Origin: Diphasiastrum complanatum
Taxonomy: Eukaryota > Streptophyta > Lycopodiopsida > Lycopodiales > Lycopodiaceae
Length of the DNA stretch: 64,000 bases
Assembly: GCA_029204225.1 (NCBI GenBank)
Contig: CM055095.1
Location: 66,675,940 to 66,739,939, forward strand
Direction of reading: 5' to 3'
Position 1 is the stretch's first letter; each line of letters begins with the position of its first letter. The position numbers and the translations under genes are program-made. Positions 5,409 through 39,553 of this stretch are shown here, piece after piece. Below the pieces are notes generated by a model. It was not told the origin of the DNA. It saw only the letters and a program-made list of their open reading frames with translations, and did not search any database.

Positions 5409-6229
5409 TGTGCAAAAAGTACAAAAAGGACCAAGAGTGGATCCTAATCTGATCCTCAAGAGGGATTGGTTGTCAGATTACTTGATCTATCAATCTACTT
5501 CAGATTAAGATCAATCTAGATCAATTCTAGACACAAAATCCTAACAAGAACAATCATTAATTGAAGGTAAGTGTACTTTATGGTTTCACACGTGTGAAGA
5601 CATTGTCTGAGTATGGACTCCAACCTGAAAATCAAGTACACATTGATAGAACCTCAAAACAATCAAAACAAATGTAGACAAATAGAGAGAATCACTCAAA
5701 ATTGCTTCCAAAACCAAGATTGGTGTCTCACATCGATTATGGCCAAATGTGGCTCTATATATACAATAAGTGGGAGCTCATGGTACTGATCATCCCTATG
5801 ATCCCACATGTGCGAAGGTGCTTTGTCATATGATGATTCATCATGCAAAACTGACACTTGGACAAAACCTTCTATTTTGAGCACTTTTGGTCCATTTTCC
5901 TTCTATATGGAGATCTACTTGGAAATCTTCTAGGAGTCAAAATTCGCCTACTTCAGCTTATTCCACACATGTGAGCTGTCCTCTACACATGTGATATGAC
6001 ACCTAACCAAAAAATGTGGCTCATGCAATCAATAGATTGATGTCATGTGTCATATGTCTAGAAAACCTTTTTAGCCACTAGAACTTGAATTAAACTATAT
6101 GTACAACCTATATGATTATGGTACATGACAAGTACATTATTTTCACACATGGTAACAGGCTCCACACATGTGTAAACATCTATTTACAAGATTTTTGGCC
6201 TCTACCAAGCTTATTTTTGCATTTTCACA
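5409..6229 (-). repeat. 3' LTR of the nested family-2 element
   Basis: It begins TGTGCAAAAAGTAC and ends GCATTTTCACA on the plus strand. It is nearly identical to 9347-10152 apart from small indels, for example extra bases near 5780-5806. It contains the palindrome CACACGTGTG at 5587-5596. A related solo copy in opposite orientation is at 42342-43162. Confidence 0.92.
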
Positions 6230-22234: not shown

Positions 22235-22728
22235 CACAATCTACTATCCAATCACAAGCAAAAAATGATCAAAATTAATGAAAAATTGATCTAATTTGGT
22301 GCATAAGTCAAGATCCAAGATTTTTTTATATTCAAAAGATAGAATTTTCTTATATTGTATCGACTCGAAAAATCTGTGATTTTTATTGTCATTGTAATTT
22401 TTCGAGTCAGTGTATATTTTTTGAGTCTTTGTTATTTTTCGAGTCTTTGTAAATTTTCGATACTGTCATAAATCTGACCCATGTCGCGACGTTGATAGTC
22501 CGCCTACTTCTGTACACAACTCTCTGGCAAAAATGACGGCCACCTACTGCAGAAAAAATGTATTTAATTAAGTAGGTTAACCAAGTACTGATCATCTGAC
22601 TTCCAATCATCAAGGAAGATCTACTGAAGTCAACAGTCTGATCAGGTTATCATCCTGCAAGCATTATACTGAAAATAGTCAAGTTGTAGTTTTTGAAGTA
22701 GGTTCATCAATGAGCTCAGCTGAAGACA
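22235..22728 (+). repeat. Probable LTR of copia element 4 (start uncertain)
   Basis: The segment ends in CTGAAGACA directly before a primer site, as expected for an LTR 3' end. Its last ~60 bp match 33115-33180, so that phrase is dispersed. At 22375-22460 the word TTTTCGAGTC or its complement recurs about four times. No partner LTR was found, so the left border is a guess. Confidence 0.55.
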
Positions 22729-22871: not shown

Positions 22872-24837
22872 ATGGATTCTACTTCTAGTTCTTCTCTAAT
22901 TGACAAGCTCGATGGAGAGAACTACTTGTGGAAGTCCAAGATGAAGGTTGTTCTACTAGCCAAGGAACTGTGGGACATAGTTAATGGTACCGAAATCAAG
23001 TCAGAGAATGATGTAGCTAGCATCATCAAATGGAGGCAACGAGATGGCAAGGCTTTTGCCTTAATCACTCTGAATATCAGAGACTCTCAAATCAGTCATA
23101 TCCGATCTGCACAGACTGCTAAGGATGCTTGGGACATCCTAGCAACTCTCTATGACATCAAAGATGTCACTTCCAAATTACATCTGAGGAAGAAATTCTT
23201 CACACTCAGAATGTCTGATGCAGACACCATTTCTAGCCATCTCAACACATTCAAAAACCTCATGGAGCAAATGATTGAAACAAGATCGGACATTGAAGAT
23301 TCAGATGCAGTAATGACTTTTTTATCGAGTCTCCTTGAAGCCTATGAATCATGGGTCATGGCTATTTCAACTCAGCAGCAACTTACTCTATCAAGACTCA
23401 TTTCTATGTTGTTACAAGAGGAAATAAGAAGGAATGCAACCTCCTCAGGCTCAGGATCGAATTCCATTGCTCTACACACAACCAAAAATCAGAAAAATCA
23501 GGAGAGATCTCCAAAGTCATATTTTTCTGACAGAAAGAGCAACTTGTAGTCTAGGTCAAATTTTGACTCTGGGTCAAAGTTTTACTCAAGGTCAAATTTT
23601 GGCTCAGCATCAAATTCGAATTTTTCTTCATCATTCCAGCCAAAGCAAAACATGTTTTACAAATACTGTAAGGGGACTGGTCATCTCATCAAGGACTGCA
23701 GAACACTCAAGTACAACAATGAAAAGAAGATGCAGTCCCAACTCAATCAGTTACTCGATCCAGCATGAAGAGGAAGATGAAGCTGCATTTTTAACCAAAA
23801 TCGAAGAACAACATAATATCGATTCTTGGTATCTGGATTCGAGTGCAACACAGCACATGACTCACCATCGAGACTGGTTCCATGACTACAAGTCATACAC
23901 CCATTCTAGAGTTGTGAAACTTGGAGACAACTCAACTCATTCCATTGAGGATGAAGGAATAATCAGGATCGAATTCCAGAAATGTGATGTAATATTTTTG
24001 TCCAATGTTCTTCAGATTCCAAATCTGACCAAAAACCTACTCTCAGTTAGCAAAATCACAGATTCAGGTCAGAGGGTTGAATTCGATAGACAAGGCTGCA
24101 CTATTCTTGACGAATCTAGGAAAGTTTTTGCTTTCAGTAAAAGGTGTGGCAATTTGTACAAACTCAGTCACTCCTATTCTACAAGTAGTCAAGCTCTTTT
24201 TACTACTACTACTGATTCAAATGATATGTTATGGCATCATAGATTAGGCCAATTAAATTTCAGTTGTATTCAGCAAATGTCGAATCAAAACTTAGTACAA
24301 GATTTACCTTTCATTAGCAAATCTGATACTCCATGTAAAAGCTGTATTTCTAGCAAGCTTGTTAGAAGTTCAATCATTTCAGATTCAGAATGTATTTCTA
24401 GAAATTTGCTAGATCTTGTACACTTGGACATTTGTGGTCTTATGCAGACTATTTCCACAGGAGGAGCTGTTTATTTGCTGACTATTAATGATGACTCACC
24501 TCAGTCCAATGGTGTAGCTAAATGGAAGACTCATTCACTCATTGAAAGTGCAAGGAGCATGTTGGCCCATGCATCTCTTCCAAAGAAGTTCTGGGCAAAA
24601 GCTGTTACTACAGCATCCTACATTCAAAATCGATCCATTTCAGAGGCCCTAAATGACAAGACACCTTATGAGGTGTGGACAAGATCGAAGCCATCACTCA
24701 ACCATATCAGAGTGTTTGGATGTTTGCTTTCATTCAGATCACTACTGATCTCAAGAAAAATCTGACTCGAGGATCGAACAATCAAAATCCGATCCAGGGT
24801 CGACTTTTATTGGCTATTCCTCAGACCATTAGACAAA
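22872..24837 (+). pseudogene. Copia gag-protease-integrase, broken off at 24837
   Basis: Gag starts MDSTSSSSLIDKLDGENY and stays open to 23549. An imperfect tandem of four ~17-bp GGTCAAATTTT units encodes a Ser/Asn repeat at about 23545-23620. The zinc knuckle near 23650 has lost its first Cys (FYKYCKGTGHLIKDC). The protease near 23835 reads LDSSAT instead of LDSGAT. GAG-pre-integrase LWHHRLGQ is near 24230. The integrase core is deleted between INDDS and PQSNGVAKW at about 24497. The reading continues to IGYSSDH near 24830, which normally precedes the polyprotein linker. Here copia similarity stops abruptly and the gene-A block begins. Confidence 0.9.
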
Positions 24838-25862
24838 CAAGCTCTTCAATCTGACTCATGGCGCTAACTCTAAACACCCTTGTTTGTACTGCATGAAAAC
24901 AGCAAAAGACATGACAAGGAGTACATGAATATCAAGAGATCGAGAAGATCCTAATTGGAAACCTGTACTACCGATTCCTCTACGAAATGTTCATATCTGT
25001 ACATTGCATGCGGAGATGCGTATTATAGAAAAAATAATATATCTTCACATCTTGTTTGCATGGAATTCCAAGCCAGAGGCCTCTGCAAAGGAAGCTATTT
25101 CCAGATTAGAGGATGTATTGTCCAAAGCAGGCTTACATAAAGGCCACGTTAAAATAAAAAAAGATGACAAGTTATCAGGTATAATAGGAAATATTCCATG
25201 CAAGCCGAGCATTGGAGGATCTAAAGCTCGAAGATTTTTATCAAATTATTCTGGCAAACAATCTAAGGTTCAATACACGGTTTGGAAAGAAATTACTGCA
25301 GCAACTCAAGATTTCGAAGAAGAAGGTTCTACTCGTATACACAAAGTAGAAGTTTGGAAAAAGTTAGACAACATGGTGAAATACTTGAGAAAAGATAAAT
25401 TTTCAAATACTGATGTTCAAATGATACAGAAAACAACCAATGAATTTGTGGATGCAGTTCAGAGTGCATGGGGTGTTGATCATATAACACATTATATGGT
25501 GAGATTTTGATTATACACTACGATAGACAAATATGTGCAATTAAATTAGATACTTTTAGTATTGATTTACATTATGTTTTTATAACATGCAGCACATATT
25601 ACTACATCATTCGACATTCTTTGCAAGAAATAGTGGAAGTCTTAGCATATGGTCATTGCAAGGAATGAAAAAATCTCATTGGCAAGCAAGAGCGGCATTT
25701 CATGAAAGTACACAACATGGTGGGACTAGCACAAAAAATAGCTATATACTACAACTTTTTCAATGGTTTTACAGAAGAATCCAAATTCGTCATAATACAA
25801 AATTGACGGATTATAAAAAATTTCAAAAAGCATGCAAATTTATACAAGCCAGTAGGCTATAG
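24838..25862 (+). CDS. Gene A: transposase-like protein, C-terminal half (one in-frame TGA)
   Basis: The frame runs from about 24842 to 25498, then across a GT-AG intron (25499-25592) into 25593-25862, phase 0 at both sides. It begins THGANSKHPCLYC, a Cys-x2-Cys segment, continues with NVHICTLHAEMRIIEKII and a long helical middle, and in exon 2 has HYMHILLHHSTFFARNSGS and LQGMKKSHWQARAAF. From memory this order (CxxC, then LHxxxRI, then HxHxLxxH, then GSL...SxQGxEK) recurs in a family of large uncharacterised proteins tied to eukaryotic DNA transposons. I could not verify this. A TGA at 24926-24928 interrupts the frame, and the N-terminus is missing at the copia junction. It is probably a decayed transposase. 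Confidence 0.5.
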
Positions 25863-25922
25863 ACACACAATAAAATTTTGTATATTAAATAAAAATATTT
25901 ACAAAGTACAATTCAGCGGTAT

Positions 25923-27311
25923 CTAATCTACTTCTGATATTTTTTCCAATGAAAGTTGCAACTTAGAATCATGCAACAATTTTCTTCTTTTGTATGGATC
26001 CAATAGCTCATAGTTTTCATGCTTACTCAGATCAACGTAAGCAGCATACACTGCAAAATGAGATGATCTGAACATGGAATTCACTGGTCCATATCCTAAA
26101 ATTTTAACCGCAATAGTTTTCTTTACAAAAATTATTTTATGCACCTTATTAAAATTATGTCCTCCAAGAAAATGAGACAGTGCCTTAATTGTCACAATCA
26201 TAGTTTCACCATGTTGATGAAACTTTGAATGGGCAACACTTATCTCATAATTCATGAAGGACTTTAGATAGTGCCCGAGTGCATGATCTCTTGAAAATTC
26301 TCCCGCAGAAGATCTTTGCCCTCCTCGACGAATTGCGAAATCATCAAGGAAAATTGTTTCTTGAAATGATAAAAAACAAAGTAAGCTCCAATATATAAGC
26401 TGACATAACAAATCTAACAGTACTTGATAAGAGACAAAAACTTGCGCATTCGGCTTTGTCTTCTCTGATTACTATCTCTCCATCAATATTATGTCCAAAT
26501 TTTGATGTCAATATTGCTGGTGAATAGACAGTTGGCTGTGGAAAACCAAGTTGACTTTGGATTCTAAGAAACTCCTCCTCAGAAGGTAGATCATCTTCTT
26601 TGTTGCGCATTTCCTCCACGGCCATTTTCAAGCAATCTTTCCCTCAATAAAACTTATCATTATGTACATCATCAACACCAGGGAGAAGATCATCAACATC
26701 AAAATCAATTATATCCGAAAATTCATCAAGCTCTTTGCTCAAAATGCAAAGAGTCTCAGCTTCAGTGAAGTCAAAAAGATTCGATATATCCGATATTGTA
26801 AAAAAGAAGTTATTATCTATATTATAAGTAGGCAAAGTGATCAAAGATTTATCAGAAGGAGAAAGGGTAGTGGATGTTCTAGAGCCTATAAAAGTAGCCC
26901 TATTTCGAACATGATCAAAATCAGAACAATCATCTAAATTCACACTCGTGTCAATAAAAAAAGTATCTATATCTACAATCTTTGACTTTTCAGACTTTGT
27001 ACCACTAGAAGAAGCTGCTTCAGAAGTGGAGGGCACAGAGTCCGAATTGTCAGAAATATTTAACAAAAAAAAAAAAAAACAGCAGACTGAAAATCAACAA
27101 ATCTACATTTTTTATTATGAATTGGGCACTCATCTACAGACTTGAAATCATTATGCAACTTGGTAAACATTCTGTCAAGCTTAGCTTTGTAGATATGCTT
27201 GTCGAGTGCCACTAGGTCCTCATACTGAATCGTGTCTTTATTCTGAGACCTGAATAACGTAGTACTGAGCAGGGACTTAAATCTGAGATATATCTCAGAA
27301 AATACCTCCAC
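25923..27311 (-). CDS. Gene B: acidic Ser/Asp-rich protein of unknown function, partly broken
   Basis: Reading leftward, an N-terminal segment (27311-27064) has a C-x2-H-x4-C cluster (CPIHNKKC). It is separated by an A16 homopolymer from a long frame rich in Asp, Glu and Ser (27058-26424; for example DIIDFDVDDLLPGVDD). That frame carries one in-frame TGA at 26644-26646. A short intron (26360-26423) leads in phase into the last exon (26359-25923), which reads FLDDFAIRRGGQRSSAG and ends at SEVD. The homopolymer may be an indel or a sequencing error. No ATG start was decided. Its start faces gene C across the CACGTG-rich repeats, which suggests shared control. I do not recognise the family. Confidence 0.45.
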
Positions 27312-27401
27312 ACCAGGGCCTCAGTTATAGAAGGTAGAATAAAAAGAAAAGGAGAAAGAAGGGTCATCATTATCAGTCCAACCTATCAGTAATACCAAAT
27401 T

Positions 27402-28560
27402 CATTAAAAAAAGAAAGCAAACTGGATTCAAAATTAGACATTTTAAACAAAAATAATAGAACTGAAGTTTCAAATATCGCTCTCAGGCGCAAACCCCAGG
27501 TCAGACAAGCACATCAAGGCAACATGCGCTCGAGAGAGATATTGGAAGCTGGAGTATCGGATCCGAGCGTAAGAACAACGAGCAGGAAAGAAAAGAGATA
27601 CGAAACGCGCTTGAATGTGATACCGGGGGATGCAGTATCAGATCCAGGCGCATAATAGTCAACAAGACGTAATGAGAGCAAGCGGCGCGCTTGAAATCGA
27701 TATCCGGCAAAGTAATCGTAAATTTGCGTGAAAATCCGAGCCGAAAAAGACCTATTTATATAAACAATTTCGCACGTGTGGAGGAGTGGCGAAGGAACAC
27801 GTGTCGACATGTGATTGGCCAAAATAAATGTGTCCTATCTTGAATGATTAATCTAACATCTGTCACGTGCGAGAATGACACGCGTCGATAAGGGATTCGC
27901 GCACGTGTCTCAGCCCACGTGTCCCCATAATTGGGTCATCATTATCAGTACGGACATTCCACGTGGTCTAGTCATCTGACGACACGTGTCTCGACCGTCT
28001 TTTCACACGTGTAAAAATTTGTGAAAATTTATTAAAAAAAGAAAGCAAACGACAAGCACGTCAAATCAACGTGCGCTCGAGAGAGATATTTGAAGTTGGA
28101 GTATCGTCCGAGCGCAAGAACAACGAGAAGAACAGACGCGCTGGAATGCGATACCGGACGATGCAGTATCGGATCCAGGCGCATAATAGCCAACGAGATG
28201 TAATGAGAGCAAGCGGCGCGCTTGAAATCGATATCCGGCAAAGCAATCATGAATTTGCGTGAAAATCCAAGTCCAAAAAGACATATTTATAAAAAAAAAG
28301 ATCGCACGTGTGGATGAGTGGCGAAGGAACACGTGTCGACTTGTGATTGGCCAAATTAAATGCGTCGTACCTAGTATGATTGATCTGACATCTGTCACGT
28401 GCAAGAATGATGCGCGTCGATTAGGGATTCGCGCACGTGTCTCAGCCCACGTGGCCTCATAATTGGGTCATCATTGTCAGTATGGACATTGCACGTGGTC
28501 TAATCATCTGACGACACGTGTCTCGATCGTCTTTTCACACGTGCAAAAATTTTGTATATA
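27402..28560. repeat. Tandem repeat carrying sixteen CACGTG boxes between genes B and C
   Basis: Unit 1 (about 27402-28029) and unit 2 (about 28030-28560) align over about 530 bp and both start ATTAAAAAAAGAAAGCAAAC. Unit 1 has about 80 extra bases near its start. A partial third copy (GGGTCATCATTATCAGT) precedes them at about 27362. Each unit holds eight CACGTG cores, in unit 1 from about 27773 to 28010 and in unit 2 from about 28305 to 28543. CACGTG is the plant G-box bound by bZIP and bHLH factors. The block sits between divergently oriented genes and is followed by a TATA box, so it is best read as a shared promoter or enhancer. Confidence 0.75.
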
Positions 28561-28564
28561 TAAG
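28555..28564 (+). promoter_or_regulatory. Candidate TATA box of gene C
   Basis: TATATATAAG lies about 310 bp before the gene C start codon and just after the second G-box repeat unit. The spacing allows a leader of about 280 nt. Confidence 0.5.
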
Positions 28565-28872
28565 TTCTCGAAATTTTCATTTTTTTTCGCAAAATTTTTG
28601 CTTTTAGCTCCCGATATCGCTCTCAAGCGCGCTCTTTTATCTTTCAAGCTTCAGCCCTTTCACAGTGCGTTCGAGTCCGATACCGCCTGCTGTGCAATAT
28701 CGCTTTCGAGCGCGCATCTCTTTTCTGCAAATAATCTTTGTAGATCTTGCGCGCATCTCTTTTTAGTAAATAATCTTTGTAGATCTCAAGCGCCCTTTCA
28801 TCGCAAATTTTTTTGTTTTGATCCACTTTTGTTTTGTTCAAACTTCTTTTTGTTAATTTTCTTCTTCCGAGA

Positions 28873-30976
28873 ATGATGGCCAGGACCAAATCCATCGCCC
28901 GTGTCATCACCACTGTACAGCCATCCCATTCTCGTATTCCCCCTGGTACTGGCCGTAGGCGTGGCAAAAAGCAGGTCTGGCTGAGGGAGATCAGGAAACT
29001 CCAAAGATCAATTGAATTGTTGATCCATAGATCTCCTTTCGGCCAATCTGTACGGAATGTCACTCTGTCACTTGGGCTGGATGTTCATTTTGTCGTGACA
29101 GCCATGCAAGCCTTGCAGGGTGCTGCAGAAGATTTTTTGTCCCAGTTTTTTAAGGATACTTGTCTTTTGGCAATGCATGGTAAGCGTGTCACCATCATGC
29201 CAAAGGATTTCGTCATTCTCAAAAGGCTTCGGGACAAATATTCTGGTCTGCATGTTGATAATGCCAACACCTCCAGAGACTTGCCTCTGGATAGAACCAA
29301 CGTGCCTACTACCTCTAGGAGGAAGAGAAAGCAGGCTGTCCCCAAGAAGGCGGGATCTCGAAGGCCAGCTGCTTCCCTTCCTCCTAGACGTATCCCGGCC
29401 AAGAGACCCCGTGTCTTCCTGAGCTCTGAGTCAAATGCTGGAGAATCTGACTCAAATCGAGAATCTTCACCCAGTCATCCTCCTGTTATTCGTCTAGTTC
29501 CTCAGCAGGTTTCATCACCAAAAGTGTTGATTACCCAAGAGGAGCTAGACAAAATAACAGAGAAATCTATAAATATTCTTTCCACTTCTGTTTCTGCTCC
29601 TGTACATAATGTTTTTGTGAGAATTCCATACGATCCAGCCCAGGTTTTTTTTTTATTTTGACCATTATAATCAATACGAGGCCTACCTAGCTAACAAAAT
29701 TGATCTTCTCGGCAAGTTTTTTTATTTTTTTCTTCCAGTTATGCATAGAAGCTTTAGATTAGGTCCCAAATTTTGTGCCGAGCTAAAAGATAAGACCTCA
29801 GAAATTTCAAATGCAATAGTAGAGGCTAGAGTTTCTTTTTGCAGAATAGTATTAGTTTCGATTCCCATGGTACAGTTTTTGTAGTTAGTCCATTTTTCAT
29901 GAGAGCGGTAAAGGCGAAAGAAGCCAATTTTGAGAAGGCTGTCTATTTTATCGAGTGCAGTCCTATGGTGAAATTTTTGATTCCATATGAAAATAAGTAA
30001 GGATTGTTCTTTTGTTTTTGTTGCTTTAATCTGGATTGTTGCATGCCTCGCTGCTTTAATAAGAACGGAATTTTTTCATAAATATGAATTTAACGATATT
30101 TGTATCTTGGTTGTTGCAGTCGGCATTGGAGCCTAAACATTCTTTTTGTAAAGATAAATAAGGAGGGAGTATCAAATTTTCTATGTGTAAAATTAAACTC
30201 AGCTGCAAATACACATAGAGAATTTGATTCTCTACTTTATGATGTCGTTCGGGAAATACCGACAACGGCAACTTCAATTGGAGATATAACCATTAAATAT
30301 CTCAAGGTATATTCAATCTATCTCTGATATGCATGTATTTCTTTTTTAATTCAAATGTATCGTCATAGCATAAATAAAATTTCTATTATAATATTACTAA
30401 TTTTCGTTCTATATATGCAGTGTGTACATCAAAATGACGCTTTTAGTTGTGCATGGTTCGTCCTGTACAATACGAAGCTATTTTTTGAATGGTATAATTT
30501 ACAAACGGATGTAGATATTGAGAAGGTAATATTTTATTCATTTGTAGTTCATTTCATTCTGATTCATATTTTATTACTATCATTGTTTGTAATTTGCTGA
30601 TTCACGTGTTTTGTGATGACAGTTCACTCTTGAGTTGTATACTCCTGATGATGTATATAGATTTCGGCAAGAGTTGATCAGAACTTTTGCCCAGTACAAT
30701 GTAAGCGTTGCACCTGCAATCGAGGGCCCTCAAAAGGAAGCTGCTCTCGTCTTAATAGCCTTTCAGATTGTTCAGGTAGCAGATCTTATTTTATATGATC
30801 AAAAAGGAATAAAAGTCCTTCCTAATACAGAGGAAGGCAATTTTGTAGCAGATATTCCTCTTGCCTTAAAAGGCATTGAGGCCCTTCCCGAAATTGAGGA
30901 GGGCGAGATTATAGGAGCTGTTGCTTTATCAGTTCCTAACACTGATATAGAAAATATAAAAAAATTGATTGAATAG
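28873..30976 (+). CDS. Gene C: histone-H3-like domain fused to a Ulp1-like (C48) protease domain
   Basis: Five exons join in phase with GT-AG borders: 28873-29643, 29845-29996, 30120-30306, 30421-30525, 30623-30976; about 522 residues. The start MMARTKSIAR mimics the H3 tail, with Lys at the H3K4 position. Residues 36-123 match the H3 fold: WLREIRKLQRSIELLI (alpha-N), a loop 1 of canonical H3 length, ALQGAAEDFL and HGKRVTIMPKDF. A basic linker (about 137-173) follows. The protease-like part (about 258-405) has IPYENNRHWSLNILF with His310, then KLNS with Asn334 where the catalytic Asp is expected, then QNDAFSCAWFVLY with Gln374 and Cys380 at the Ulp1 spacing. A tail of 117 residues is unrecognised. 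C48 proteases cut SUMO-like modifiers. I infer a nuclear, chromatin-bound protein. Confidence 0.8.
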
Positions 30977-31167
30977 AGATCTATTTGTAAATAGAGAGAC
31001 ATAAAAAAAAAAAGATTCAATCATTTTACTTATAAACGACCCGTTTGTGGGGTTTTTTATTGATATCACAATAGATCTTACAATCAGCTTGTGTCCATAG
31101 TCTAATAATGGAATGCAATTTTTCTATAATGATAAAAATATTGGCATGTATTTGCTGATAGTGAATC

Positions 31168-32128
31168 TCAATGTTCTTCCATAAGTTGGATTGTTTCGCC
31201 AATATCTCTGCATTTGATCTCGAACTCGTGTCTTTTACGTACCTGCATAAAACTAATATAAAGATAGTTAGAATTAGTACAGAGTTTGTATTAGAAAGTT
31301 TTGATTGAAACTATTCATAAAAGATCGAGTGTTTACAGTTACTTACGAGTTTACCATTGAAAATGAATCTGAAGTCTGAAAGTACATCATCTTGTAGGAG
31401 CAATAGTTCCCGCCGAATGTAGTTTAGACTCCAATCCTCTTCTACCTCAACACATGTCAAAACGGCATCATTGTTTATAAATTTAATATTTTTTCATTTT
31501 AAATGTCCACTGGCTTCCAAGTCTTGATCGAGTGGCACCCATTTACCTTTATTTTTTTTTCATCTTTGATAATGGAAGCATAAGCTCAACATTTGTTTTT
31601 CAATTTGATAAAGGAAGCACATGGAAGACATTTTAATTCTGCATTCTATTTCTCCATCTGATCTTTTGTCCCAGCCTTCATCCATAAGTTCAAATAATAA
31701 ACTATCTGATAAATTTTTGCATACAAACATCATTGGGGTTTTGTGTACATTGACACTTGAAAAGAAATTCAAAAATATATTCAAGGAAATAAACCAACTC
31801 AATCTGATTGTTTTTTATCTCGTGCTCATTTTTAATGAATTTTTTACATCATTATATATCTTGCAATGAAATGATTCTGAAACTGTAGCATCTGGTGCAA
31901 TCCATTCATCACTTTCAAAGCTAGGTAATGGAATTGGTACTATTTGTCCAAAATTTTCTTTTGTATCAGGAATGTACATTGATTCATAAAAAAAAAATTC
32001 ACTATCAACTAGATTTTTTGCAGTTCTACCTCGATATTACAGTTGTCCAATATCAGTGTGAATAACATCTAACAGGCCTGCTAAAAATCTACTCGGCTCC
32101 CATTTATTTATGTTGGATGGATATAAAT
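31168..32128 (-). pseudogene. Gene D: unrecognised multi-exon gene with in-frame stops
   Basis: On the minus strand a good acceptor (TTTTCTCTTGCAG) opens an exon at 32128 reading NKWEPSRFLAGLLD and DSEFFFYESMYIPD. Further open blocks follow at about 31800-31560 and 31550-31347. The latter ends FRFIFNGKL at a GTAAGT donor, and the final exon 31242-31168 reads VRKRHEFEIKCRDIGETI. Stops interrupt the otherwise continuous frames: TAA near 32040 and TGA near 31560 and 31490. A possible further exon (CIYAFRDKCARIQPSG) lies at about 32218-32345, next to a copia fragment. No family was recognised. Intron use and base composition match genes A-C, so it probably belongs to the same element. Confidence 0.45.
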
Positions 32129-32379
32129 CTGCAAGAGAAAAATGATCAGATTGGTAAGTTTACTATTAGATATTTATGAATGACAAAAATCAAAGTATCA
32201 AAAATATTAATACTCACAGTTGTTTTTTTTGTGATCCTGACGGTTGAATCCTTGCACATTTATCTCTGAATGCATATATACATGTTGGACTAGAATTCCA
32301 GAAATAGATTTTTCTCCTAATGATGTTTTGAAATCCAAAATTTTGGCCTTCCAATAAGATCGAAATGATAGTTTTGACC

Positions 32380-32546
32380 TTTTCCTTGATGAAGCCCTCG
32401 GGTTGTCTCATGAAGATCTCCTCTTTCCAATAGCCATTTTGAAAGGCATTAATCACATCAAGCTGAAAAAGAGTTTTCGATATGCTCCTCTTGATGATGG
32501 ATGCATCAAAACCCAATAGTTGTTTGAATATTTTCTTGGCACCCAT
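32380..32546 (-). pseudogene. Copia reverse transcriptase fragment
   Basis: The minus strand encodes FQLDVINAFQNGYWKEEI and MRQPEGF, the conserved block around the first RT Asp of copia elements. It stops abruptly toward gene D, so it marks the right-hand edge of the gene A-D block. Confidence 0.85.
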
Positions 32547-33114
32547 AATCCATTATCATCTGTCTCGTTGAATAGAAGCACAGAGTCGATTGAGGAGCAC
32601 AGCTTCCTTGATGGCGCCATTCATAATTTGCATGCAAAAATCTGAAACAATGAACTATGAATCTGAAAATCTGCATAGACAAAAAGCCATGAATCTGAAA
32701 AAAAGTGTTGGCAAAAATTTGAAACACTGATCTATTTGGCGCCACAAATTAACTCTGGTTATCCTTGTTAACGATGGTTTGACAATGCATATACATTAAT
32801 GGTACATCGATTTTCTCATCTCAATCATCTGTCATATTCATTTTCAATATTTTTGGGTCTCTTCAGGCAGTGATGAGCTGGAAGGGCAGGCCTCATCAAC
32901 CAATAGCATTTCCACATACTGCCCGACAAAACAACAATATATTTAAAAAGTTTTTATTTTATTTATATTTGGAAAATTCTGCGTTATGTAAAACCCCAAA
33001 GCTAAGGTTTCAATTGGTCCACATGGCAACGAAAATAAGAAAAATAAATAAAAAAGCATCTTTTTCAAAGGCCCTCGTCGGGCTCTAAGTTTCTCTAATG
33101 CTTGAAGATCTAAA
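32547..33114. other. No recognisable feature
   Basis: The stretch holds short frames only. A T-rich segment near 32940-32990 has no repeat partner in the window. Confidence 0.4.
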
Positions 33115-33497
33115 AATTAAATAGTCAAGTTGTAGTTTTTTAAGAAAGTTCATCAATGAACTCATCTGAAGCTGTGTTTTTTAGTGCCTACTGATTTGCT
33201 CTTAGCTTCAAGCCATTGTACACAGTTTTGATTATTATCAAAGTGCATTTTGTGTCTACACTGCTATTCTGTTCTATTGTGGTGTAGTTACTCGATCCAT
33301 CTTGAACTTTGCTTTGCTGGTAACTGCTGCACTTCCGATCCACTACACCACACATGCTCTCCACTTCCGCTGCAAATCTCCACATTTTCACTGATCTCTG
33401 ACTTGATATCAGAGAGTCTATTTCTATCATATCTCTATTATTCTTATATCAGTTGCCCATATCTGAATCCACTGATTTTCTACATGGTGTCAGAGCT
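33115..33497 (+). repeat. LTR end fragment with primer-site relic
   Basis: Bases 33115-33180 match the last ~60 bp of the LTR before 22728. At 33484 the sequence TGGTGTCAGAGCTC resembles the copia primer site with one change and is preceded by TTTTCTACA, an LTR-like end. It is a scrap of one or two plus-strand LTRs joined to the minus-strand relic on its right. Confidence 0.5.
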
Positions 33498-37629: not shown

Positions 37630-39553
37630 TTAAAAGGCACTCACAGACACTTTTCTTTCATTCAGAGCCTGTACAGGTCGACTATTGGATCCCTGCACAC
37701 AAATTATGAAAGTTGATCTGATAAGTTGCCTTATTCAGTCCAAAACAACCTCTATAGAGCGATTTAGAAGAGCAAGTGCTTACCTCTAAGGCAACTCTAA
37801 ACAATGCCAACTGAATAGGAGACACTTTGTATATCTGTAAAGCAGAGCAGATAGCCAGCCTATTAACATGAATGATAAGTGTTCGGATTTTTGTAGGCCA
37901 AAACAAAGGGTAGAACATGGTAAGAAATGTTCTCGGAGAGAGATGGAGAGCTTACCGTGCTGACAATAGTCCATATAACACCTTCAGTACAAGGGGGAGT
38001 GGTCAAAGATCCCCCATATTGGTAGTAATGGTGTGTATCTGTAGGTTTGGAATAGATATTGACAGGGACGCCAGCCAATGCCTGGTTCTTTTTTAGTTTT
38101 CCAAGTTGCGATGTTACCTGCAAAAGGGTGCGGACCCAATGAGTTCCTTACAGTGAGTGGCTGGAATACTTAGCCAAAGAGCCCATTATTCAACACTCTG
38201 AAGCAATCCAGCACACAGTTTTCCCTTTTTATACCACTATAATACATGAATGCCAGTCAGATTTAGATGAGCACCTGTTCCAACACCGGGTTCTCTGCTT
38301 CGCCATATTCAAAAACAGCTACAATAATCGCATTAGCACCCTCCGGAGAAACGTGGAAAACTTGCATTTCCAAGGGGAATCTGAGCATAAACCGGAAAAT
38401 CAGTTTCACCAACACTGCCAAATTAGCAGGTAACACTGACCTGCCACTTTATATTGCACAGTTCATGACCACGAAGTTAATCATCTTAGCAATATCAGTT
38501 CAAACGAATCGCAAATGAATATGAAAAGAAGAAGTCTGATTAACGTACTCAACTCCATTGATAGTATGCTCGCTAGGGGAGTGGAAGTCAACATAAGCTA
38601 GGCTATAATTCACCCCTTTGATGATTAAGCTTCCTCCTCCTCGAATAACCTAAACAGATAACGTTGGGCTTTCATGAGAGAGCTCGAAACAATTGACATC
38701 ATCACTCAGCACAGTTCATTTAACAATTTCCAAAAGGGCAATAAAATATCACAGAGTGTAAAACACAACTTGAAAGAACAAGCTTTAAGCAACAATGGCT
38801 TTAGCCTTGAGATGGCGGCAGAAATAGCAGTCGCCGTGCCCTGAGAAGCTTACTTTGATTGTCCGACCATCGTTGGTAATTGTAGCATTGCTATACTCTG
38901 GAGCATTATCATATGTTAATGGCAGCATTCCCAGCTCCAAATCCTCCTCGAGCTCATACTTGTGAACATCAATGGGTGACTGCATTCTTCCACTTTTGCA
39001 TACAGCCCACCTAGGATCAAGATCAGCCCAGTGATCTGGTCCCTCGCTACTTTCGGAACAACTGTAGCTCCAATTGTCACCTAATGCCACAAACGCATCA
39101 TATTACTGTCAGAAAATAAAAGAAACCAAAAATGCACTTCGAAAGGTGATATATGCCTGAATACCGAGAAAAAAAACTATTACTACAAGTTAAAAAAGCA
39201 CACGCAGTTTTGAGGCAAGTGAAACTGAAGCGCAGAAATATAACACGATTTGAAAAGGATATGGCCATTCCGATTTCACAATGTGAAAATTCCTTACTTG
39301 CTAGATGACTTGAAGCTTCGTTGTAAAGGTCTGTAACACTTTTCAGATGGGTTTCATCCTGCATGCATTATTGGTTGCAATTTCAACTCACTGAGTAGAA
39401 TTTAAGCTAACCAGGTAATTGATAAACTTTAGATGAAATGTTTGATGGAATGTTTACAGTACCATGCAATACCTGTTGTGCAGAACTCCATCCCAAGCTC
39501 CACAAGAAGAAGCAATGATATAACACAAAGGCCCTTCTACAGGACACCATCAT
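37630..39553 (-). CDS. Alpha-carbonic anhydrase-like secreted protein lacking two zinc ligands
   Basis: Eight exons join in phase on the minus strand: 39553-39473, 39358-39298, 39080-38854, 38649-38549, 38380-38275, 38117-37956, 37834-37784, 37692-37630; 283 residues, normal family length. The first exon gives a hydrophobic signal peptide. Family motifs include GRMQSPIDV, SPSEHTING, SLTTPPCTEGVIW and the terminal NSRPVQALN. Active enzymes bind zinc with H-x-H...H. Here the first His is Asp144 (VDFHSPSEH), the second is His146, and the third is Gln163 (PLEMQVFH). Two of three ligands are thus lost, while the fold residues remain. Catalytic CO2 hydration is unlikely; a storage or binding role, as in dioscorin-like relatives, is possible. 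Start chosen at the first of two ATGs. Confidence 0.9.

Follow-up and report, generated by a model that had tools for sequence, protein, structure and literature searches.

Anti-silencing proteins, some of them with Ulp1 domains, are known from plant transposons. Some VANC genes carry such a domain (PMC13317346); VANC21 of Arabidopsis recognizes a DNA motif directly. The locus described here appears likewise to belong to a multi-gene plant element, and the closest parallel that we found for it is VANDAL (Kaonashi/KIU, with a Ulp1-carrying VANC), a group of non-TIR, Mutator-like elements of Arabidopsis. As in VANDAL, an accessory gene is predicted here to combine a Ulp1/C48-like module with a second module, and tandem-repeated non-coding DNA is densely set with a short motif, in this case 16 CACGTG sites in two repeat units. 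The partner module is VANC in VANDAL, whereas at our locus it is a histone H3 fold. The two also differ in the motif itself (CACGTG here), in the host, which is a lycophyte, and in that no match to a Mutator transposase or to VANC was obtained at the locus.

A comparable C48 add-on is found in Ginger1, where a Ulp1-type protease was added C-terminally to a DNA transposon protein (PMC2836005). The Ulp1 module of Ginger1 is fused to the transposase, however, while the C48-like part described here is predicted to be joined to H3, and its neighboring genes gave no match to an integrase-type domain. H3-like proteins carried by non-host elements also have precedents, namely the viral H3s of Sylvanvirus and Xenomavirus and the histone fusions of giant viruses. 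In contrast to the 51% identity of our exon 1, the Sylvanvirus and Xenomavirus proteins are 75-77% identical to cellular H3, and the main text of the viral-histone review from which these values are taken (PMC9145170) never uses the word "protease". Canonical and centromeric H3 share the histone fold and the ARTK start with the exon 1 product, whose alignment to canonical H3 is ungapped, including loop 1. Relative to canonical H3, the exon 1 product has 51% identity, replacements of several arginines and a long C-terminal extension.

A C48 module within a mobile element is of an already known kind. Among the matches listed in a search of open-access PMC text, we found neither an H3-C48 fusion nor a transposon-encoded H3, and an H3 fold on a transposon-like repeat, with a putative fusion to a C48-like module, would be new as far as this literature goes. 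If true, a mobile element with its own histone H3 would represent a different route to anti-silencing, one that alters the nucleosome rather than the DNA mark. It would then be testable whether a histone devoid of the silencing lysines suffices to shield a sequence from heterochromatin.

The window, i.e., the whole 64,000-nucleotide stretch of DNA that was analyzed, is from Diphasiastrum complanatum, a lycophyte of the Lycopodiaceae. Within it, the histone fold and the C48-like module lie in consecutive exons on one strand, as the preliminary description had it. The features of the H3-C48 gene are as follows.

28873..29643, plus strand: exon 1, (M)MARTK tail, H3-type histone fold and basic/serine-rich linker; 257 aa
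28924..29220, plus strand: histone fold, PF00125 match, residues 18-116; E 9.7e-23
29644..29844, plus strand: intron 1 of the preliminary description, more likely frame-shifted coding sequence between T-runs
29845..29996, plus strand: exon 2, segment running into the C48-like core
30120..30306, plus strand: exon 3, HWSLN with candidate catalytic His; Asn where an acidic residue is expected (by eye)
30421..30525, plus strand: exon 4, QNDAFSC with candidate oxyanion Gln and catalytic Cys
30623..30976, plus strand: exon 5, C-terminal tail

An MARTK start followed by an H3-type fold had been claimed, and the claim was borne out for exon 1. The reading frame begins with MMARTK and, read as an ORF, is closed by a stop ending at 29661; it matched PF00125 with 81.2 bits, exceeding the Pfam curated cut-off of 26.4. 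Among the best 60 of 175 PDB matches, the closest chains were H3 (E about 1e-19), and the core was identical to an H3.1 chain at 44 of 86 aligned residues (51%). CENP-A chains were nearly level with H3.1 in the same set of best 60 of 175 (72.3 vs. 73.8 bits). Loop 1 has the canonical length and aligns to H3 free of gaps, without the lengthening of the CENH3 type, yet CENP-A scores are close in this comparison, which covered PDB chains. An identity as centromeric H3 (CENP-A/CENH3) is made less likely by the canonical loop 1 but may still hold, since the CENP-A scores almost equal those of H3. A single-sequence structure model of exon 1 had a pLDDT of 43.7, too poor for a fold search; its helices lie roughly at the H3 positions, to which we attach no evidential weight.

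The H3-like tail (ARTKSIARVITT...) keeps A1-R2-T3-K4 and has V at position 9, positions being given in what we take to be standard H3 numbering. The only lysines ahead of the core are at 4, 30, and 31, with none at K9 or K27, and the tail before the core is 13 residues shorter than in canonical H3. Within the fold, three arginines are replaced (R63H, R69Q, and R83H), all at positions that we presume to be DNA-contact residues of H3, and the DNA contacts of the predicted product are partly lost. The fold retains H113, R116, D123, and the KRVTIMPKD block. None of 717 protein candidates was related to exon 1 at E up to 0.001 (candidates were 0.55-1.75 times the length of the 257-aa query, a range that lies outside the ~136 aa of an ordinary H3), and the H3 part is known from a single copy within that search. 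Likewise, the NCBIfam library for bacteria and archaea had no match for the H3 half or for the C48 half. Capture of a host H3 gene together with its promoter was considered and rejected: positions 27330-28873 contain no CGCGGATC octamer, no CATCCAACG nonamer and one ACGTCA, which we take to be the motifs of H3 gene promoters, although a decayed promoter would escape this comparison.

The segment following the linker had been described as a C48 module on the strength of its His, Gln, and Cys residues. These are indeed present in C48/Ulp1 order (His310, Gln374, and Cys380), with a His-to-Cys distance of 70 residues, and their spacing in the 522-aa model is, we assume, that usual for the C48 family. 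Asn334 occupies the likely site of the acidic triad member, as placed by eye. The resemblance was weaker than had been stated, however. Profile searches, which the preliminary description had put forward as a check on both halves, were positive for PF00125 (E 9.7e-23) but borderline for PF02902. The exact 522-aa model reached 16.7 bits (E 0.0066), and a joined version differing at one exon border reached 17.7 bits (E 0.0034); the read-through version gave 17.1 bits (E 0.0051), and a piece that was trimmed post hoc gave 19.7 bits (E 0.00082). All four scores (16.7-19.7 bits) lie below the Pfam curated cut-off of 20.7. When one reversed and nine shuffled controls of the trimmed piece were searched, 0/10 matched C48, so the likeness exceeds what composition would give. 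A phmmer search of the C48-like part against PDB returned no Ulp1/SENP chains up to E 10 (five matches at chance level, E 0.17 to 1.3). Judged from these residues, the C48-like triad seems atypical and the protease activity is putative.

When the five exons were joined, a single open frame of 522 aa with GT..AG borders was obtained, reproducing this part of the earlier claim of one spliced gene. The claim held less well at intron 1, which reads more like coding sequence that has undergone two frame changes. Its donor sits at a T-run, and one frame is open over 66 codons; in 5000 simulations that preserved the dinucleotide composition, such openness had a P of 0.013 in that frame and 0.037 in any frame. 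The codon score of the open frame, as trained on the exons of the H3-C48 gene itself, was +0.07, whereas no frame of the three other introns scored above -0.12. Two of these three (123 and 97 bases) likewise have one stop-free frame, which counts against a special status of intron 1. The shifted frame begins at 29621, ahead of the closure of exon 1, and from the second T-run onward there is no stop in the exon 2 frame. By eye, the read-through version adds a helix that we take to resemble the first helix of Ulp1. We gave it little weight because the Pfam alignment stops short of the helix and the score is barely higher (17.1 vs. 16.7 bits). Taken as a whole, 29644-29844 is probably coding, with this copy holding two frame changes at T-runs, either real or arising from assembly. 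One intact spliced gene is a predicted join that these data support in part.

Upstream of the H3-C48 gene, and separating it from a divergent neighbor, are two tandem repeat units.

27397..28024, no strand: tandem repeat unit 1, intergenic control region; 628 bp
28025..28552, no strand: tandem repeat unit 2; about 530 bp
27773..28543, no strand: 16 CACGTG sites, eight per unit, corresponding one-to-one and all conserved

The two units are identical at 476/531 aligned positions (89.6%), and unit 2 is followed by a TATA-like stretch at about 28555-28562. The 1.5-kb region 27397-28872 had a CpG observed/expected ratio of 1.57, as opposed to 0.43 in the rest of the window, and when the window was scanned in 700-base segments every 100 bases, the 13 segments highest in CpG all fell in or across this region. 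Of the 31 CACGTG sites in the window, it holds 16, where 0.29 would be expected from dinucleotides and the maximum in simulation was 3 (n = 1000). In a comparison that involves two repeat copies, no column differed between units within the CACGTG sites (0/48), vs. 55/483 elsewhere (Fisher P 0.006). CpG columns outside of these sites differed more often than average (14/84), implying that it is the motif that was kept and not CpG as such. CACGTG is the plant G-box, and a host factor may therefore read these sites. The CpG richness of 27397-28872 could be ordinary promoter composition. Palindromes around CACACGTGTG occur outside of the promoter at 5589, 9165, 9527, 35070, 42976, 52285, 59067, 59087, and 61016, with TTCACACGTGTGAA found exactly four times among them; they are perhaps part of another repeat.

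Three genes neighbor the H3-C48 gene and its control region.

24929..25862, plus strand: left neighbor, 193-aa ORF and a possible second exon at 25593-25862
25926..27180, minus strand: divergent neighbor, several ORFs, with one in-frame stop between 26647-27093 and 26347-26643
31176..32129, minus strand: right neighbor, long frame with four in-frame stops (two TAA, two TGA) before a possible last exon

None of the three neighbors had a Pfam match above cut-off, and a Mutator-type transposase was not identified among them. The left neighbor may bear some likeness to the tail of a DDE transposase. It ends beside the convergent minus-strand gene, and its start was apparently lost next to a copia remnant; given this incomplete gene, a lost transposase is possible. 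The right neighbor is a broken gene. Copia remnants flank the H3-C48 locus on both sides.

Protein searches with the fused or C48-like queries had a sole match, P0001 (O6H91_Y440400), also from D. complanatum, once in a set of 7997 scored candidates (E up to 0.01) and again in one of 2457 (E up to 0.1). The match has 76% identity over 71 aa, corresponds to 30620-30832 of the window and begins one codon before the exon 5 border. P0001 is without the H3 part and has only a portion of the last exon in common with our gene. For its first 326 residues the window offers no counterpart, further tblastn matches being only at E 7.7 and 9.6, and on this ground we rejected the reading of P0001 and our gene as the same locus. 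The last-exon part probably belongs to a dispersed repeat, seen in one other place and there as protein only. As the simplest reading of the two sequences, a copy of the repeat may lie in or beside the P0001 gene, its last exon having been spliced in by the gene predictor at the same acceptor. A link to mobile elements, suggested in the preliminary description, is supported by this recurrence of part of the last exon and by the broken neighbor gene.

The explanation that we favor, tentatively and with somewhat more doubt than conviction, is that the locus is a decaying copy of a multi-gene transposon-like repeat, whose accessory gene encoded a fusion of H3-like and C48-like parts, possibly serving to counter silencing. 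The H3 part would take H4 as its partner and be incorporated into chromatin, with a preference for the element's own control region. There, its A1-R2-T3-K4 tail could bear the anti-methylation mark at K4, while offering no lysine 9 or 27 for silencing marks. Silencing factors at the same control region would lose SUMO or a similar modifier to the C48-like part, and the two parts together would keep the promoter unmethylated and active. We infer every step from fold to function in assigning the fusion product the role of an anti-silencing accessory factor. An H3 open to the K4 mark and not to the silencing marks, coupled to a module like a SUMO protease, would suit such a factor, and the CpG-rich repeat promoter with its conserved CACGTG sites, in a layout like that of VANDAL, may be taken as indirect support for the escape from silencing that the preliminary description had suggested. 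In Arabidopsis, H3K4me3 promotes active DNA demethylation (PMC11842272). A more specific version, in which a transposon-made H3 variant that can be methylated at K4 but not at K9 or K27 acts with a deSUMOylating protease on its own CpG-rich CACGTG promoter, replacing host nucleosomes and keeping the element unmethylated, strikes us as improbable. Several observations speak against the explanation that we favor: the C48 scores below the curated cut-off and the apparent Asn in the triad, the single known copy of the H3 part, the limitation of P0001 to part of the last exon, the lack of convincing terminal inverted repeats and of an identified transposase in the parts searched, the replaced arginines, and a CpG richness for which ordinary promoter composition could account. 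The two frame changes and the broken neighbors likewise suggest that this copy is dead.

It is also conceivable, though rather unlikely, that the locus comprises two adjacent genes, a 262-aa H3-like gene whose stop codon is 29659-29661 and a separate C48-like gene of the repeat, and that the fusion is an error of splicing prediction. Exon 1 does carry its own stop, the H3 part is absent from P0001, and the GC content of exon 1 (0.475, vs. 0.34-0.39 in the other exons) implies that the halves may differ in origin; moreover, predictions of animal histone-histone fusions were splicing mis-annotations in the cases examined in a review (PMC9145170). Against this reading, there is no gap between the halves, as the shifted frame is already open from 29621, upstream of the exon 1 stop. 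The intervening 29644-29844 is open and coding-like, and the C48 exons rejoin in phase under the five-exon model. Alternatively, the gene might have been domesticated from a transposon and now be a functional gene of the host, encoding an H3-protease fusion in which either intron 1 is real, as in the preliminary description, or the broken look reflects assembly errors at T-runs. The open five-exon frame with its GT..AG borders would agree with domestication. T-runs are common sites of assembly error and could mimic frame changes. However, the neighboring genes are broken, copia remnants lie on the flanks, a part of the last exon recurs elsewhere in P0001, and no full-length relative was found among the 7997 and 2457 scored candidates of the protein searches, all of which makes domestication improbable.

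We attach a similarly low probability to the H3 part being functionless, a captured host sequence that hitch-hiked on an element to which only the C48-like part mattered. Gene sequences caught by plant transposons mostly become pseudogenes or vanish (PMC13317346), and the GC content of exon 1, unlike that of the other exons, would fit such an origin. On the other hand, the fold, at 51% identity to H3.1, has stayed free of stops and has kept H113/R116/D123 and KRVTIMPKD, which would suggest a time under constraint after capture.

A 53-bp direct repeat, 91% identical between its copies at 22673-22725 and 33119-33171, lies astride the element, with the copies 10.4 kb apart; these may be pieces of copia. 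There were no convincing terminal inverted repeats among the best 25 of 38 pairs in 24400-32600. In viral contigs, no relative was found of exon 1, exon 5, the left neighbor (searched in two parts) or the divergent neighbor, and a Polinton-type element was rejected, as the neighbors examined had no polymerase, integrase or capsid match. Further downstream, at 37866-39102 on the minus strand, is a carbonic anhydrase gene of the eukaryotic type in two pieces (PF00194), the only host-like gene recognized in the parts of the window that were annotated.
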